From Halogeometricum sp. S1BR25-6 (lineage in GTDB: Archaea > Halobacteriota > Halobacteria > Halobacteriales > Haloferacaceae): DNA of 64,000 bases. How positions within the stretch are numbered: position 1 is the stretch's first letter; the number at the start of each line of letters is the position of its first letter. The DNA lies in assembly GCF_031624495.1 (NCBI RefSeq), contig NZ_JAMQOP010000004.1:62001-126000 (forward strand), given 5' to 3'. Positions 18,625-26,336 of the stretch are shown here, piece after piece. Position numbers and translations under genes: made by a program. The notes beneath the pieces were generated by a model. The model did no database searches. It saw only the letters and a program-made list of their open reading frames with translations, and was not told the origin of the DNA.

Positions 18625-18867
18625 TTATTCGAACGTGTCGCCCAGGTAGTCACACTGCCAGAAGACGACGCTCACGATGAGAAGGAGTACGCCGGCGACG
18701 GCGAAGTCCATCATGAGTACGACGTACGACGCGGTACCCCGTTCGACGCTCGTCAGGGCCAACAGACCGAGCACGAGGGCCAGGAGGGTGAACGAGAGAA
18801 TACCGGTCCAGAGCATCTTTCGGCGGCAGATCCAGTTTTTGAAGTACGCCCGTTCTGAGTTTCCCAT
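18625..18867 (-). CDS. small two-span membrane protein
   Basis: An 80-residue protein (MGNSERAYFKNWICRRK at the N-terminus) with two hydrophobic segments, about residues 20-40 and 50-70, and a short acidic tail QCDYLGDTFE. The ATG at 18867 is chosen because codons further upstream belong to the antisense of the transporter gene's promoter. It is divergent from the ABC substrate-binding protein, whose start is 142 bases away. The family is not recognised; an accessory membrane role next to the transporter is possible. Confidence 0.55.
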   Translation of the reverse strand: MGNSERAYFKNWICRRKMLWTGILSFTLLALVLGLLALTSVERGTASYVVLMMDFAVAGVLLLIVSVVFWQCDYLGDTFE

Positions 18868-19009: not shown

Positions 19010-21109
19010 ATGGATTCGCAAACTAGTGGTGAGTCCGACGAGTGGATCAGCGACGACGAGTGGGAGGACGTGTCTCCGCAGACGCGCCGTCGTCTGCTCA
19101 GGAACGCTTTCGGGGCGACGGCGGGCGTCGCCGCACTCGCGGGGTGTAGTGGAGAGGACGACCAATCGACGCCGACACCGCTCCAGAACGAGGGTGACGG
19201 CGGCGGAGGGACGTCGACTGACTCGGGGACCGCGGACGGGGGTTCGTCCGGGAAGACGCTCGACCACATCATCTCGCTCGCGCCGACGAACGCCCGGTTC
19301 AACCCCTACGGCAACGCGACGAACTGGTCGTTCCGGTGGTACTGGGCCATGTTCGACCAGCTCGCGGTCCACGACAAGGTGGCGAACAAGACGAAAGGGA
19401 TGGTCATCGAGGACTGGAATTACGCCGACAACGGGCAGGTCACGTGGAACGTCCGCGATTCGTACACGTGGCACAACGGCGACGACCTGACGGCGGAGGA
19501 CGTGGCCACGCAGCTGAAGATCGGACAGCTGATGCAGACGGTCCACAAGGGGTACGGCGCCCAACCGCTCTACGAGAACGTCGAGACGACCGGAAAGTAC
19601 GAGCTCACGTTCGACCTGAAGGAGGCGGACATCAGCCGCGAGATATTCGAGTTCGGGCACATGAAGCGCCGCGCGTGGCTCTGGGCTCACCGGGACATCT
19701 GGGGCAAGTACGCCGAGATGTTCGACGACGCCACGACGGAGGACGCGCGGACCTCCGCCCAGCAGGAGATGATGCAGGCGGTGCAAAAGGAGGTGTGGGA
19801 CAACTCGAACGTCCCCGGAAACTCCGTCTGGGAGTTCGTCAGTGGCGAGGAGAACATCGCGTACTTCGAGCCCTACGACGACTACTACAGCCCGTTCAGC
19901 GACGCCGAATGGGCGGACGGCGACATCACCGGGGACATGATCGACTACAACCTCCGGTGGCACCGCTACCCGAACCAGCAACAGCGAACGCAGGCGATGA
20001 AGCAGGGCACCATCGACGTCAGTTATCCGCCGGACTCCGAGTCCGCTCGGGAGGGCATCCGAGAGAAGGGCTGGGGCCCCGCCGACGACCTCTCGACGGA
20101 TCAGATCACTCCCTCGATGCGGAGCGGATCGATGTGCACGCTGTTCAACTGCCAGAGCGACATCACTGGCGACCCGCGCGTCCGCAAGGCGATTCACCAC
20201 ATCGTCCCGCGGAAACCGCTGGTCGCGTGGGTTCCCGATTACGAGTCCTACTGGGTGGAAGACCGGATCCCCTCCGGCATGGGTCAGGACAAGGAGGTTC
20301 CCTGGTACGGCGGGAACTCGAACTGGCCGAACGGAGCGCTCACGGATTTAGAGCGGTACGCCCACACGAAAGACGACGTCGACAAGGAACGGGCCACGCA
20401 ACTGCTCGAAGCCGCCGGATTCTCCAAGTCGGGTGGTCGCTGGCAGGACTCCGACGGGAACAACATCACGCTCCGGTTCTACACGGCGACGTCCGGCGAG
20501 GAACCCATGGCCCTGCGCTTCGCGCAGATAGCGAAGTCCTACCTGGACAACTTCGGCCTCCAGACGGAGGTCACGGCGCAGGAGGCTACTATCCGCGCCG
20601 GGAAGACGCTCGAATCCGGCAACTGGGAGATGCTGTTCGACACCTGGGGCGGCGCGAAGTCCGGCCCAGCGTTCCTCGACTTCTCGACGACGTTCCAACT
20701 CCAGCAGACGCTCTCCGGACAGCCGATCGGAACGAACGACAACTGGGCGATGAACAGGAAGGTTGAGGTGCCGTATCCGATAGGCGACCCGACGGGCGAC
20801 CTCCAGGAGGTCGACGTCATCGACAAACTCAACCGACTCCAGACGCGGATGTCCGACGAGAAGCGCCGACAGACGATCGGCGAGATGGCGTGGATATTCA
20901 ACCAGTCGCTGCCGATGATGCTGGTGAACGAGGAAGGCGGAACCGGCGGCTACTGGCTGGACCACAGCAAGTGGCAGACCCAACCCCCGAACAACAACCG
21001 GAACCCGGCGTACCGCTACGAAATCGTCGAGGTCGGGCAGTACTCGTACTGCCAGTACATGGCGAAGACGGGAACCGAATACTTCGGACCCGCAGAAGGG
21101 GGACAGTGA
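19010..21109 (+). CDS. ABC transporter substrate-binding lipoprotein, family 5 (Tat)
   Basis: A 699-residue extracellular binding protein. The N-terminus has TRRRLLRN (25-32) followed by a hydrophobic stretch and a lipobox LAGC (43-46), so it is exported folded by Tat and lipid-anchored at Cys 46. A Ser/Thr/Gly/Asp-rich linker follows. The body shows family 5 features (FNPYGNATNWSF near 100, VRDSYTWHNGDDLTAEDV near 155, DPRVRKAIHHIVPRKPLV near 390). Family 5 proteins bind peptides or oligosaccharides. The pectin enzymes around it favour an oligogalacturonide or rhamnogalacturonan oligomer. The start at 19010 lies about 31 bases after a TATA element (TGTATATAC, near 18977-18985). Confidence 0.87.
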   Translation: MDSQTSGESDEWISDDEWEDVSPQTRRRLLRNAFGATAGVAALAGCSGEDDQSTPTPLQNEGDGGGGTSTDSGTADGGSSGKTLDHIISLAPTNARFNPYGNATNWSFRWYWAMFDQLAVHDKVANKTKGMVIEDWNYADNGQVTWNVRDSYTWHNGDDLTAEDVATQLKIGQLMQTVHKGYGAQPLYENVETTGKYELTFDLKEADISREIFEFGHMKRRAWLWAHRDIWGKYAEMFDDATTEDARTSAQQEMMQAVQKEVWDNSNVPGNSVWEFVSGEENIAYFEPYDDYYSPFSDAEWADGDITGDMIDYNLRWHRYPNQQQRTQAMKQGTIDVSYPPDSESAREGIREKGWGPADDLSTDQITPSMRSGSMCTLFNCQSDITGDPRVRKAIHHIVPRKPLVAWVPDYESYWVEDRIPSGMGQDKEVPWYGGNSNWPNGALTDLERYAHTKDDVDKERATQLLEAAGFSKSGGRWQDSDGNNITLRFYTATSGEEPMALRFAQIAKSYLDNFGLQTEVTAQEATIRAGKTLESGNWEMLFDTWGGAKSGPAFLDFSTTFQLQQTLSGQPIGTNDNWAMNRKVEVPYPIGDPTGDLQEVDVIDKLNRLQTRMSDEKRRQTIGEMAWIFNQSLPMMLVNEEGGTGGYWLDHSKWQTQPPNNNRNPAYRYEIVEVGQYSYCQYMAKTGTEYFGPAEGGQ

Positions 21110-21297: not shown

Positions 21298-23412
21298 ATG
21301 GTAGAGAAGAACTACTACGTCAGGCGGATAGTACAGTCTTTAGTGACTGTATTGGCGGCGATCACGTTCTCGTTCGTGACGATACGTCTCATCCCCGGTG
21401 GGCCGATGGACTACATCGCCGCACAGATACGGCAGCGCTCCGGCGGATCGGTTTCGACGGCGCGCCTCAACCAGATGGTCGAGATGTACTCGAACGTTAA
21501 TCCCTCGAAGCCGATGTGGGAGGCGTACGTCGATTACATCGTCTCGGTGGCGCAACTGGACTTCGGCCGGTCGATATTCTACGCCGACCCGGTCTGGGAC
21601 GTGCTCGGCCCGGCGATTCCGTGGACGATGTTCGTCTCGCTGTTCGCGCTCGTCATCGGGACGGTGATGGTGTTCCTCATCGGCGGCTTCCTCGCCGTCC
21701 ACGAGGGCGACACCTGGGACGTCGTCGGGAGCTACTTCGTCATCTTCTCCGACGCGGTACCCTACTACGTCGTCGGACTCGTGCTCCTGTTCGTGTTCGG
21801 ATTCGGGACGGAGTTCTTCCCCAACGGGGGGCGCTACGACAACTCCCTGACGCCCGGATTCAACATCGAGTTCATGGCCAGCGTACTCAGACACGCCGCG
21901 TTGCCCATCATGTCCTTCGCGCTCACCTCGTGGGGCGGCCTTGAGTTCCGCGCGCACTGTACGCGGATCATCGGCGAGGACTATGTGGACGTGGCCGAAC
22001 TCCGGGGACTCCCCGACAGCAGGATCCAACTGCGGTACATCGGCTGGAACTCGATGCTCCCGATGTACACGGGCCTCATGGCCGGCCTCGCCAGCCTCTT
22101 CGGCGGGTCGGTCATCATGGAGCAGATATTCCGCTACCGCGGCATGGGCTTTTACTTCTACGAGGCCACGATGGCGCGGGATTACACGACGGTGATGGCG
22201 GCGGTCATCCTCTTCACCGTCGTCACCGTCATCGGCCTCCTCATCGCCGACTTCACCTACGGCTTCATCGACCCCCGCGCCGGCCACAGCCAACGGGAGT
22301 CCTACTCGCGTTCGTACCGCGAACAGTTCCAGCGGTTCGTCAACCGCCTCCGGAACGGTCGCGGCGAGGAGAGCGAGACCATCGACGACCGCATTCAGGA
22401 CAGTCGCGTCTCGAAGAGCGGCGCGATGAGCTTCGACGTCGAGCAGTCGGACTTCTCGCGCGGCGACTACGTTCGCGAGCGCATCGACCAAAGCCTCCTG
22501 ACGCCGTTCCGCATTATCTGGACGTCGCCGCGGGCCCGCGTCGGCGCGATCATCCTCGCAATATTCGGGTTCATGGGGCTGTTCGGACCGTACCTCGTTC
22601 GGCCCGTCGACCCGATGCAGGGGCCGATTCTTCTGCAACCGCTGGAGAACCTGGCCTACCCGCTCGGCACCGACGACATCGGCCGCGACCTCTTCGCCCA
22701 GCAGGTGCGGGCGACGCGTCCGATGCTCATCATGATGCTGTCGGGCGCGGCGGTGACGCTCGGTCTCGCCATCCTCCTCGGCGTCACCGCAGGCTACCTC
22801 GGCGGCCTCATCGACAAGGTGCTGATGACCATCACGGACGTGATGATGAACATCCCCGGCTTGGCGCTGGTCATCGTCCTCGCCGTCATCCTCTCGCCGA
22901 AGAGTCCGGTGTTCGTCGGGGTCATCCTCGCCGTCGACAACTGGCCGCGGCTGGCGCGACAGCTCCGTTCGCAGGTGCTCACCATCCGCGGCGAGGCGCA
23001 CGTCGAGGCCTCCCGCGTCCTCGGCCTGCCGACCAAGAGCATCCTCTCGAAGAACGTCATGTCCCGGCTCATGCCGATGCTGACGATGGGGACGGTCGGC
23101 TCGATGCGGAACATCCTCATGGAGTCGGTCGGCCTGTACTTCCTGGGCATCCTCCCCTTCACGACGAACAACTGGGGCATCGTGCTCAACATCGCCCGCA
23201 ACGGCGGCGCGCTCTCGGGCGTGGACCGGTTCCACTGGCTCCTCGCGCCCATCCTGTTCATCGTCACGATGACGTACGGGCTCCAACTGTTCGCGCAGGG
23301 GACCGACCGCCTGTTCAACCCCCGCCTCCGCGCGCGGCACGCGGCGACCGTCTCGACCGACGAGACGGAGGAGGAAGGCCGCGGCGGGTCGTCCGCCTCC
23401 GCGGCCGACTGA
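21298..23412 (+). CDS. fused DppB-DppC type ABC permease
   Basis: A 704-residue polypeptide holding both permease subunits of a peptide/oligosaccharide importer. Residues about 1-330 match DppB: a first helix at 8-30, IRLIPGGP, and an EAA-type loop EDYVDVAELRGLPDSRIQLR near 225. Residues about 400-690 match DppC: the TDDIGRDLF segment near 460, an EAA-type loop GEAHVEASRVLGLPTKSIL near 565, and GLQLFAQGTDRLFNPR at the end. A polar linker (about 335-400) joins them. In most such operons these are separate genes. No stop or frameshift separates the halves. A TATA element at 21261-21270 precedes the ATG. It follows the binding protein by 188 bases. Confidence 0.9.
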   Translation: MVEKNYYVRRIVQSLVTVLAAITFSFVTIRLIPGGPMDYIAAQIRQRSGGSVSTARLNQMVEMYSNVNPSKPMWEAYVDYIVSVAQLDFGRSIFYADPVWDVLGPAIPWTMFVSLFALVIGTVMVFLIGGFLAVHEGDTWDVVGSYFVIFSDAVPYYVVGLVLLFVFGFGTEFFPNGGRYDNSLTPGFNIEFMASVLRHAALPIMSFALTSWGGLEFRAHCTRIIGEDYVDVAELRGLPDSRIQLRYIGWNSMLPMYTGLMAGLASLFGGSVIMEQIFRYRGMGFYFYEATMARDYTTVMAAVILFTVVTVIGLLIADFTYGFIDPRAGHSQRESYSRSYREQFQRFVNRLRNGRGEESETIDDRIQDSRVSKSGAMSFDVEQSDFSRGDYVRERIDQSLLTPFRIIWTSPRARVGAIILAIFGFMGLFGPYLVRPVDPMQGPILLQPLENLAYPLGTDDIGRDLFAQQVRATRPMLIMMLSGAAVTLGLAILLGVTAGYLGGLIDKVLMTITDVMMNIPGLALVIVLAVILSPKSPVFVGVILAVDNWPRLARQLRSQVLTIRGEAHVEASRVLGLPTKSILSKNVMSRLMPMLTMGTVGSMRNILMESVGLYFLGILPFTTNNWGIVLNIARNGGALSGVDRFHWLLAPILFIVTMTYGLQLFAQGTDRLFNPRLRARHAATVSTDETEEEGRGGSSASAAD

Positions 23413-23627
23413 ATCCCTTCGTTCCCCTCTTCTCTCTCCGTCGCGCTTCTTCGTCCGTTCAGCCTCGTGTTCTCGAACGCTCTCCTCGGTTTCGTCTCTT
23501 CGAACGCCGAGCGCCGTCCCTTCGCCGACCCGCTGTCGGTCGTTCCGCCAGTCTCCCGGCGCGTCCGCCGTACTCGGCGAAAAGATTAACTTAGGCGACG
23601 CGGACCCTTCGAACGGGTCTAACACCA

Positions 23628-23729
23628 ATGAAAGTGGAGAAAGAAGGGAACACCACGCGGTATATGATCGGCCTGATACTACTCGTTATCCTGCTCGTCG
23701 GGGTGTACTACGGATTCACCATGATGTGA
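23628..23729 (+). CDS. 33-residue single-span membrane protein in the ABC transporter cluster
   Basis: A short frame beginning MKVEKEGNTTRYMIGLILL, with a charged cytoplasmic end followed by about 20 hydrophobic residues and ending YYGFTMM. A TATA-like AAAGATTAACTTA at about 23580-23592 lies some 40 bases upstream of the ATG. It is placed between the fused permease and the ATPase genes on the same strand, so it may be an accessory subunit, or a regulator of the transporter. Its stop TGA abuts the stop of the opposite gene at 23730 with no gap. Too short for normal gene calling; no family recognised. Confidence 0.5.
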   Translation: MKVEKEGNTTRYMIGLILLVILLVGVYYGFTMM

Positions 23730-23951
23730 TCAGAACTGGTGGTACGCCCAGAGGAGGCCCCTCGATACGACGGCGACGGTGATCAGCAACCCGCCGATTA
23801 TTCCGAGCATCCCGGCCCAGACGCCCGTCTGAAGCATCGCGCCCGCCAGTATCAACAGTGCTCCGACGACGATCACGGACGAGGTGACCGGGCCGCCGAG
23901 TTTCGAGCGCACCGACCGTAGTCCGTTCTGTCGCGTTCTCGCTTGCGCCAT
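23730..23951 (-). CDS. small two-span membrane protein
   Basis: A 73-residue protein with a basic N-terminus (MAQARTRQNGLRSVRSKLG) and two hydrophobic segments (about residues 24-44 and 46-66). A TATA-like element (CTATAAGTTC on the minus strand, about 23974-23983) lies 28 bases before the ATG, supporting a real leaderless gene. It faces the 33-residue gene tail to tail and separates the permease from the ATPases. No family is recognised. Confidence 0.6.
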   Translation of the reverse strand: MAQARTRQNGLRSVRSKLGGPVTSSVIVVGALLILAGAMLQTGVWAGMLGIIGGLLITVAVVSRGLLWAYHQF

Positions 23952-24162
23952 ATCTCCGACGTTTAATTTGGTAGAACTTATAGCTTGCCGGTGGGTCGCC
24001 CACCGTTCGGTCGTCGCGACCGTCGCACCGCGTGCCAGGTCGGGAAAGTGTTAAGTGGGATTGACCGTGATAGTTTCGTATCGCAGCCATTATGTTGGGT
24101 ATTCACGCGCATCACGGACTGGCCCGGTCGAACGGCTCACACACCGACGAGACGGATTGACA

Positions 24163-25224
24163 ATGTCGACTCAGTACACCAGACGCGAGAGCAAGGACGA
24201 CGGCCGGTCGGCACACAACGTGCTCGAGATATCGAACGCGAGCGTCGCGTTCGCGATGGAGCGGGGGGATGCCCGCGTTCTCGACGATGTCTCGATAAAC
24301 GTCCGGCAGGGAGAGGTGCTCGGCGTCGTCGGCGAGTCGGGGTCGGGGAAGTCGATGCTGGCGGACTCGATGCTCGACGCCATCGACTCGCCCGGGACGC
24401 TCACCGGCGACGTTACGTTCCATCCGCCCGAAGGGGGCGACCCGATAGCGGTCAATCAACTGAGCAAGGAGGAACTGCGCCAGTTCCGCTGGGAGCGGGT
24501 GTCGATGGTCGTCCAGGGGGCGCTCGACTCGTTCAACCCGACGCTCAGCATCGGCGACCACTTCGTCGAGACGCTCCGCGCGCACGACTACGACGTAGCC
24601 GAGGGGATGGAGCGAGCGCGACAACTCATCTCGGACGTCCACCTCGAACCGGACCGCATCCTCGACGCCTACCCGTACGAACTGAGCGGCGGGATGACCC
24701 AGCGCGCCCTCATCGCGCTGAGTCTTCTTCTCGACCCGGACGTGCTGGTGATGGACGAACCCACCGCGGCGCTGGACCTGCTGATGCAGCAGTCGATTCT
24801 GAAGCTCCTCTCGGAGCTGAAAGAGGAGTACGACCTCACCATCGTCATCGTCACCCACGACCTGAGCCACGTCGCCCGCATCTCGGACCGACTGGCCGTG
24901 ATGTACGCCTTCGAGATTCTCGAACTCGGTCCGGTGGGGGACATCGTGGCGAACCCCTCGCACCCCTACACGAGGGAGCTTCTCAACTCGATTCCCGACA
25001 TCGACGCCGATTTAGACGAGATGGCGTCCATCGAGGGAACCAGTCCCGACCCCCTGAACGTCCCGAAGGGCTGTTCGTACCACCCGCGGTGTCCGCTCGC
25101 CGACGAGCAGTGCCGCGAAACCAATCCCGACCTCTTCGAGGTGTCGGGGGACCACAGCGCCGCGTGCTTCTACTCCGACGAGGCGCGCGAGACCATTCCG
25201 CTGAAAAAGGAGGTGACGAAATGA
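24163..25224 (+). CDS. ABC transporter ATP-binding protein, DppD/OppD type
   Basis: A 353-residue ATPase. Walker A is GESGSGKS near 60, signature LSGGMTQR near 170, Walker B VLVMDEPTAALD near 192, and the switch His is in IVTHDLSHVARI near 225. The C-terminus carries the oligopeptide-transporter extension with conserved Cys (CSYHPRCPLADEQC), which in this family can bind an iron-sulfur cluster. The start at 24163 gives the usual N-terminal length; an earlier in-frame ATG at 24055 would add unrelated residues. It is followed in ATGA overlap by the second ATPase. Confidence 0.9.
   Translation: MSTQYTRRESKDDGRSAHNVLEISNASVAFAMERGDARVLDDVSINVRQGEVLGVVGESGSGKSMLADSMLDAIDSPGTLTGDVTFHPPEGGDPIAVNQLSKEELRQFRWERVSMVVQGALDSFNPTLSIGDHFVETLRAHDYDVAEGMERARQLISDVHLEPDRILDAYPYELSGGMTQRALIALSLLLDPDVLVMDEPTAALDLLMQQSILKLLSELKEEYDLTIVIVTHDLSHVARISDRLAVMYAFEILELGPVGDIVANPSHPYTRELLNSIPDIDADLDEMASIEGTSPDPLNVPKGCSYHPRCPLADEQCRETNPDLFEVSGDHSAACFYSDEARETIPLKKEVTK
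25209..25216 (+). promoter_or_regulatory. strong Shine-Dalgarno of the second ATPase gene
   Basis: GGAGGTGA, within AAGGAGGTGA, is nearly a full match to the archaeal 16S 3' end and lies four bases before the ATG at 25221. Such strong sites are uncommon in haloarchaea and here decide the start and imply coupled translation within the operon. Confidence 0.7.
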
Positions 25225-26336
25225 GCTCCCGCCCGCTCTTGGAGGTGGACGACCTGAGCGTCCACTTCGGCGGCGACAGCGGGATACTCGACCGCTTCCT
25301 CGGCGACAACAAGGGCGTCGTTCGCGCCGTCGACGGCGTCTCCCTCGACATCGGCGAGAACGACGTGGTCGCACTCGTCGGCGAGTCGGGGTGCGGGAAG
25401 ACGACGCTCGGCAAGACGATGATCGGCCTCCAGCGCCCCACTTCGGGCGCCGTCCGCTTCCGCGGGCAGGACATCTGGAAGTCCGACCTCGAACCGGGCG
25501 ACATCCCCTACAAGGACATCCGCAAGTCCCTCCAGATGGTCCATCAGGACGCCGGCAATTCGCTGGACCCCAACCGCACGATATTCAAGAACCTCAACCC
25601 CGCGCTGAAGAAGTGGCGCCCGGAACTCAACCTCGTCGAGCGCCGGGAACTCGTCCATCAGATGCTCGATACGGTCGGTCTCACGCCCGCCGACGACTAC
25701 GCCTCGCGCTACCCGCACCAACTCTCCGGCGGGGAGGCCCAGCGCACCGTCATCGTCCGGTCGATGCTCCTCGAACCGGACCTCATCCTGGCCGACGAGG
25801 CCGTTTCGGCGCTCGACGTCTCACTGCGCGTGAACCTGATGGACCTGCTCTTGGAACTGCAGGAGATGTTCAGCACGTCGTTCGTCTTCATCTCGCACAA
25901 CATGGCGAACGCCCGCTATCTCGCCGGCCGCGCCGACGGTCGCATCGCCGTGATGTACCTCGGGCGCATCGTCGAAATCGGTCCCGCGGACGAGATAATA
26001 AAGAACCCCCAGCACCCCTATACGAAGAGCCTCCTGTGGGCCACCTCCGGTCTCTCGGAGATAAACGACCCCATCGAGTCGCCGCCGGTCAGGAAGATAG
26101 ACATCCCGGACCCGGAGAACCCGCCCAGCGGCTGTCGGTTCCACACGCGCTGTCCCGAGGCGCGCGAGTTCTGCACGGGGAACGACCCCCAACTCGAAGG
26201 GATGACCGGTTCGAGCGACAGACACGAGACGGCCTGCTTCGAGGCACACGAACGCGTCGAGTACCGCAACAGCGCGCCGCTTCCCGACGACCCCGAGGAC
26301 GTCGACGCGACCGGACGACCCGCCGACGCCGACTGA
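25221..26336 (+). CDS. ABC transporter ATP-binding protein, DppF/OppF type
   Basis: A 371-residue ATPase partner of the preceding gene. Walker A GESGCGKT near 58, the Q-loop LQMVHQDAGNSLDPN near 104, signature LSGGEAQR near 168 and Walker B LILADEAVSALD near 188. The switch region reads FISHNMANARYL, without the usual Asp of THDL but with the His retained. The Cys-rich C-terminal extension (CRFHTRCPEAREFC) is present. Its ATG overlaps the stop of the previous gene by four bases and has a strong ribosome site. The two would form the heterodimeric motor for the fused permease at 21298. Confidence 0.9.
   Translation: MSSRPLLEVDDLSVHFGGDSGILDRFLGDNKGVVRAVDGVSLDIGENDVVALVGESGCGKTTLGKTMIGLQRPTSGAVRFRGQDIWKSDLEPGDIPYKDIRKSLQMVHQDAGNSLDPNRTIFKNLNPALKKWRPELNLVERRELVHQMLDTVGLTPADDYASRYPHQLSGGEAQRTVIVRSMLLEPDLILADEAVSALDVSLRVNLMDLLLELQEMFSTSFVFISHNMANARYLAGRADGRIAVMYLGRIVEIGPADEIIKNPQHPYTKSLLWATSGLSEINDPIESPPVRKIDIPDPENPPSGCRFHTRCPEAREFCTGNDPQLEGMTGSSDRHETACFEAHERVEYRNSAPLPDDPEDVDATGRPADAD

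Follow-up and report, generated by a model that had tools for sequence, protein, structure and literature searches.

Small proteins that act on transporters have been described in several systems, such as: AcrZ, MgtS, MgtR, MgtU, SgrT, and LucB with a mycobacterial ABC importer (PMC10710835, in the portion of that source available); and sP36, which acts on AmtB1 in an archaeon (PMC10714827, likewise in part). The initial annotation of the DNA studied here had held that short single-span proteins tune transporters in bacteria, and AcrZ, MgtS, MgtR, MgtU and LucB are precedents for this (PMC10710835, same portion). In the open-licence literature, we found no such small protein for a haloarchaeal ABC importer. 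Here we report a candidate from Halogeometricum sp. S1BR25-6, encoded in the window, by which we mean the whole stretch of 64,000 nucleotides analysed (contig NZ_JAMQOP010000004.1, positions 62,001 to 126,000). The importer cluster has the following features:

18625..18867, minus strand: m80, an 80-residue membrane protein with two spans, its gene pointing away from that of the binding protein
19010..21109, plus strand: substrate-binding protein, with weak, sub-cut-off similarity to Opp/Nik binding proteins in NCBIfam
21298..23412, plus strand: fused OppB-OppC type permease of 704 residues, with two stretches matching BPD_transp_1, and with an Opp4B half followed by an Opp4C half in NCBIfam, both scoring under the cut-off
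23584..23590, plus strand: GATTAAC, a consensus promoter-like (TATA-type) element of putative function, beginning 44 bases upstream of the ATG of the next feature
23628..23729, plus strand: gene for a predicted single-span membrane protein of 33 residues, with an ATG at 23628 and a TGA ending at 23729
23730..23951, minus strand: m73, a 73-residue two-span membrane protein, convergent with the 33-residue gene and present in 11 of 11 loci
24163..25224, plus strand: OppD-type ATPase, with ABC_tran and oligo_HPY domains
25224..26336, plus strand: OppF-type ATPase, with ABC_tran and oligo_HPY domains

The binding protein starts with RRRLLRNAF...LAGC, which we take to be twin-arginine and lipobox-like motifs. 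The OppB and OppC halves are fused in the window permease and are two separate genes in many related haloarchaeal importers; a permease was counted as fused only when its frame had no inner stop. A hydropathy-based helix count on eight permeases, bearing on the idea of a split-off permease helix, was noisy, four of the eight (L119-L121, L123) being an unfused OppB alone.

The 33-residue frame (MKVEKEGNTTRYMIGLILLVILLVGVYYGFTMM) begins 215 bases past the stop of the permease gene, and is flanked by that gene and the first ATPase gene. Its placement between permease and ATPase genes, as initially claimed, stands, with the qualification that a further small membrane-protein gene, m73, intervenes on the minus strand. 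A hydrophobic span covers approximately residues 12-31 (Kyte-Doolittle maximum 2.38 over 19 residues), and AlphaFold predicts a single helix over residues 5-32 with a mean pLDDT of 86.5, the block means being 67 for residues 1-10, and 96 and 97 for residues 11-30. Thus, coordinates, hydropathy and predicted helix agree with the ATG-initiated, membrane-spanning frame first proposed. With 33 residues and one predicted span, the protein belongs to the class of at most 50 residues with a single membrane span, and its gene is of a length below the reach of most gene finders. The positive charges K2, K5 and R11 lie before the span and none lies after it, the C-terminus being uncharged; as the positively charged side of a span stays inside (the positive-inside rule), the N-terminus is probably inside.

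Searches of Pfam, NCBIfam, PHROG and PDB returned no family match for the 33-residue protein: the best matches had E-values of 0.35 (Pfam, FixQ), 0.12 (PHROG) and 0.14 (PDB). A CcoQ/FixQ identity was considered and rejected, as the FixQ match scores 11.3 bits, short of the cut-off of 29, and the context is an importer and not a cbb3 oxidase. The family is hence new to the libraries searched, and the kind, small transporter partners, is already known.

The frame recurs in 11 genomes, the window's included, which belong to four genera, with seven of them from one genus. The proteins of the other ten loci are 100, 88, 88, 88, 88, 85, 85, 85, 73 and 67% identical to that of the window, and 17 positions are invariant in all 11 sequences (M1 V3 E4 E6 G7 T9 R11 Y12 G15 L22 L23 G25 V26 Y27 Y28 F30 T31), some of them within the polar N-terminal part and others within the latter half of the span (GVYY-FT). 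Between Halogeometricum pallidum and the window the frame differs at seven bases, all at third positions and all silent. The dN/dS values lie between 0 and 0.37 (15 pairs, six sequences), and across ten distinct DNA sequences the variable columns number 12, 5 and 23 of 32 at the first, second and third codon positions, respectively. When alignment columns were shuffled, a procedure that keeps column contents and ignores relatedness, none of 2000 shuffles was as conservative as the observed alignment (232 residue differences against a shuffle mean of 402), and 88 of 2000 were free of stops.

Spurious ORFs of this length are frequent in G+C-rich DNA, and 99 ORFs of at least 25 residues, genuine genes included, occupy the surrounding 12 kb. 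A chance hydrophobic ORF is nevertheless refuted, to the point of a negligible likelihood, by the retention of start, length and residues across four genera together with the shuffles. A conserved regulatory RNA or leader in which the ORF is incidental would accord with the promoter-like element and with the partly conserved stretch upstream of the frame; against this, most changes are silent, with a concentration at third codon positions, and no Rfam match rises above threshold (one weak match has an E-value of 0.73 and scores 18.6 bits where the gathering score is 50), making such an RNA very improbable. The frame, with its start, length and residues kept and its bias to silent sites, is under selection at the protein level as judged from these comparisons, and that it is a gene is near certain. 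The initial suggestion of a genuine small membrane-protein gene is thereby upheld: neither the frame nor its hydrophobic pattern is lost in any of the 11 genomes.

The distribution of the gene is narrow. A protein search of 170 whole genomes of the window's family recovered ten with full-length matches, all with E-values of 1.2e-11 or better, and Halosimplex aquaticum, which lies outside this family, also carries a full-length copy (MQVEKEGSTARYLIGLITIVLLLMGVYYVFTVAF). Strong matches were obtained in 8 of 392 sampled genomes of the order, all within the window's family, in 1 of 146 genomes of the Halosimplex family, and in 2 of 374 genomes of a phylum sample, both already among the 11; the order, genus, family and phylum samples overlap, and these counts are not additive. 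Weak partial profile matches, mostly within long frames, were not counted as relatives; they number 18 in the order sample of 392 (E 0.011-0.1) and 3 among the 146 genomes of the Halosimplex family (E 0.003-0.008). No match was found in the viral contigs searched, and plasmid records held nothing matching the intergenic DNA, the permeases there all being below 60% identity.

Wherever found, the gene is present in a single copy, and the genomes searched gave no strong match outside the importer locus. These observations bear on the possibility that it encodes a sugar- or membrane-stress peptide, induced with the pathway and acting on the membrane at large, in the manner of YohP or of type I toxin-like hydrophobic peptides. 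Small size and a single hydrophobic span are typical of such peptides, and the convergent transcription with m73 could yield an antisense RNA. Type I toxin-like peptides, however, usually move about, and a single copy beside the importer, the lack of matches in the viral contigs searched and the strong conservation of the polar N-terminus all tell against this reading, which we regard as improbable.

The link to the importer is strict. In 11 of 11 loci the order is: fused OppB-OppC permease, 33-residue ORF, convergent m73, ATPase, ATPase; the gene is thus genetically linked to one transporter throughout. Among the genomes of the window's family it is present in 10 of 10 with a permease of at least 86% identity and in 0 of 160 of the rest, in keeping with its proposed membership of the ABC importer cluster. 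Permease matches at E 1e-100 or better occur in 18 family genomes, and the eight weaker ones lack the 33-residue gene. A permease scan of named genomes recovered nine loci of at least 75% identity (Halogeometricum pallidum, six Haloferax, Halobonum tyrrellensis and Halosimplex aquaticum). Within Haloferax, the 7 of 15 genomes with the gene are the same seven with a close permease ortholog. Halosimplex retains the importer, the 33-residue gene, m73 and m80, whereas its 18-kb locus yielded neither of the two Gfo/Idh-type genes that adjoin the importer in the ten other genomes; the 33-residue gene therefore follows the importer and not those neighbours. On this comparative evidence we consider it very likely that the gene is tied to the importer, and the linkage could partly reflect common descent of the whole cluster, since 11 genomes are involved and seven are of one genus.

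More distant importers are organized differently. We scanned 34 loci with distant permeases and found an ATPase start in 21, the other 13 being uninformative as the available stretch contains no ATPase. The gap between permease and ATPase is -15 to +35 bases in 18 of these 21 (610, 638 and 2014 in the other three), so that the 33-residue gene and m73 occupy a space that most relatives do not have. None of the 21 has a plus-strand small membrane ORF in this gap, and one, L050, has a minus-strand one. This ORF (L050 3818-4129, minus strand; the same place as L122 7140-7451, minus strand) belongs to a paralogous fused importer of genome G100, in which the permease-ATPase gap is 638 bases; it is different from m73 and sits where m73 sits here. 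As related importers with approximately 40-50% permease identity do without the 33-residue gene, its product is not part of the core machine.

The gene appears to be set apart in its transcription. The promoter-like element noted initially is indeed there: GATTAAC at 23584-23590, with TTAAC at most 44 bases 5' of the ATG in 10 of 11 loci and CTAAT at -40 in Halobonum; TTAAC occurs five times in the whole window, counting both strands. Such an element suggests independent transcription of the gene. Moreover, m73 lies on the minus strand ahead of the ATPase genes with its stop abutting that of the 33-residue ORF, so the latter is not simply co-transcribed with them; with its own promoter-like element and an opposing gene before the ATPases, it is not a simple operon member. 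A 22-codon frame (24092-24160, plus strand) ends with a stop two bases ahead of the ATPase ATG. In 9 of the 11 loci it lies at -71 and has this exact length, its residues being only partly conserved, and it is absent in that form from Halobonum and Halosimplex; it is possibly an upstream ORF controlling translation of the ATPase.

The two neighbouring mini-proteins, which the initial annotation did not mention as part of the locus, are equally persistent. For m73, dN/dS is 0.12-0.43 (15 pairs), a TATA-like CTATAAGT lies upstream, and a Pfam search returned no family. The stops of m73 and the 33-residue gene directly adjoin (gap 0) in 9 of 11 loci; they are 6 bases apart in Halobonum and 101 in Halosimplex. 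Relatives of m73 (G100:C5:141315, G087:C13:62140, G114:C2:152781; P 1e-11 in a profile comparison with the m73 group) lie approximately 1.6 to 2.8 kb beyond the second ATPase gene of three distant, unfused importers that lack the 33-residue gene. Hence, the 33-residue protein might work with m73 (or m80) and not with the permease, as a mini membrane complex co-inherited and co-induced with the importer. The constant pairing with m73, the abutting stops and the occurrence of m73 relatives beside other Opp-type importers speak for such a complex. Yet m73 is itself found beside importers, so that the pair still points to the importer, and in Halosimplex, where the two genes are 101 bases apart, both are still between permease and ATPase; we view this partnership as unlikely.

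Each of the 11 loci encodes m80 (the ten besides the window at 49-95% identity), and the protein bears a weak likeness to 65-residue proteins of G100, G087 and G114 (hhalign probability 51, P 1.6e-4). Its PG(S/T)-Y look-alikes are seen near many distant haloarchaeal Opp-type importers. A two-span mini-protein with the loop (D/E/Q)(P/R/K)G(S/T/A)..(Y/F) occurs in 19 of 20 loci of greater length (15-18 kb, with the window among them; L122 is the exception). This count is not independent, since the window and its orthologous loci make up 11 of the 20 and several examples had been seen before the motif was defined. Such a mini-protein occurs in 1 of 25 short loci (about 4-5 kb) and 0 of 33 control loci (100.8 kb). 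As a tentative idea that we would sooner doubt than accept, haloarchaeal Opp-type sugar importers may carry dedicated mini membrane subunits: the PG(S/T)-Y two-span type, the m73 type and, in this sub-group, the 33-residue type, together forming an accessory belt around the permease. If true, this belt would be an extra layer undescribed for this importer class in the literature searched.

The neighbourhood also hints at the cargo. In the window, GH28, GH4 and altronate dehydratase genes lie near the importer, and the Halosimplex importer has as neighbours genes of GH4, family 2 pectate lyase and DHDPS type. These pectin-type enzymes fit the pectin setting initially envisaged and support pectin oligomers as the probable cargo. 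Pectin enzymes are described in three of ten haloarchaeal genomes compared (PMC3102087, in the portion available), and in the open-licence literature on pectin uptake in haloarchaea we did not find this importer.

Since the gene occurs at the same place in one importer cluster across four genera, its small product probably assists or regulates the importer. The 17 invariant positions would be needless for a mere membrane anchor and are of the kind needed for contact with a protein, for which the importer is the obvious partner. We therefore put at roughly 60% the reading in which the protein, with its single pass, acts on the importer by direct contact as an accessory subunit or a regulator. 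Under this proposal, the protein would be made separately from the permease and ATPases, from its own promoter-like element; the helix (residues ~12-31) would be inserted with the charged N-terminus inside and would pack onto the lipid-facing side of the permease; near the N-terminus, the conserved segment VE-EG-T-RY would lie at the cytoplasmic face, near the side at which the ATPase docks; and the protein would stabilize the complex or set its activity when pectin oligomers are present. Of the importer-tuning role first suggested, the real gene and the strict importer linkage are thus secured, and the tuning itself is an extrapolation from them. Should binding to the importer prove true, sequence alone would have revealed a small subunit with a regulatory role in an archaeal ABC importer of sugars, and haloarchaeal ABC importers, usually read as a binding protein, a permease and ATPases, would have overlooked small subunits.

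The acrZ gene is located apart from acrAB, unlike the 33-residue gene inside its importer cluster. By description, AcrZ of Escherichia coli (49 residues) is like the 33-residue protein in being a single helix, and acts with a large transporter, the AcrB pump (PMC10710835, portion available); this partner is an RND efflux pump, unlike the Opp-type importer here. LucB of the Mycobacterium tuberculosis lipid-uptake ABC transporter is comparable, again by description, as a conserved small transmembrane protein proposed to regulate an ABC importer (PMC10710835, same portion), but pertains to another importer class and organism and was found in a structure, whereas the 33-residue protein is known from genes alone. 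MgtS, MgtR and MgtU (28-31 residues) share its size of approximately 30 residues and stabilize, inhibit or direct the turnover of Mg2+ transporters (PMC10710835, same portion); they differ in being bacterial and FtsH-linked, with P-type ATPase and PitA partners. Finally, sP36 of Methanosarcina mazei is an archaeal small protein controlling a transporter, AmtB1 (PMC10714827, portion available). Unlike the 33-residue protein, it has 61 residues, is spread in the cytoplasm and moves to the membrane on nitrogen upshift, and its target is an ammonium transporter and not an ABC importer.
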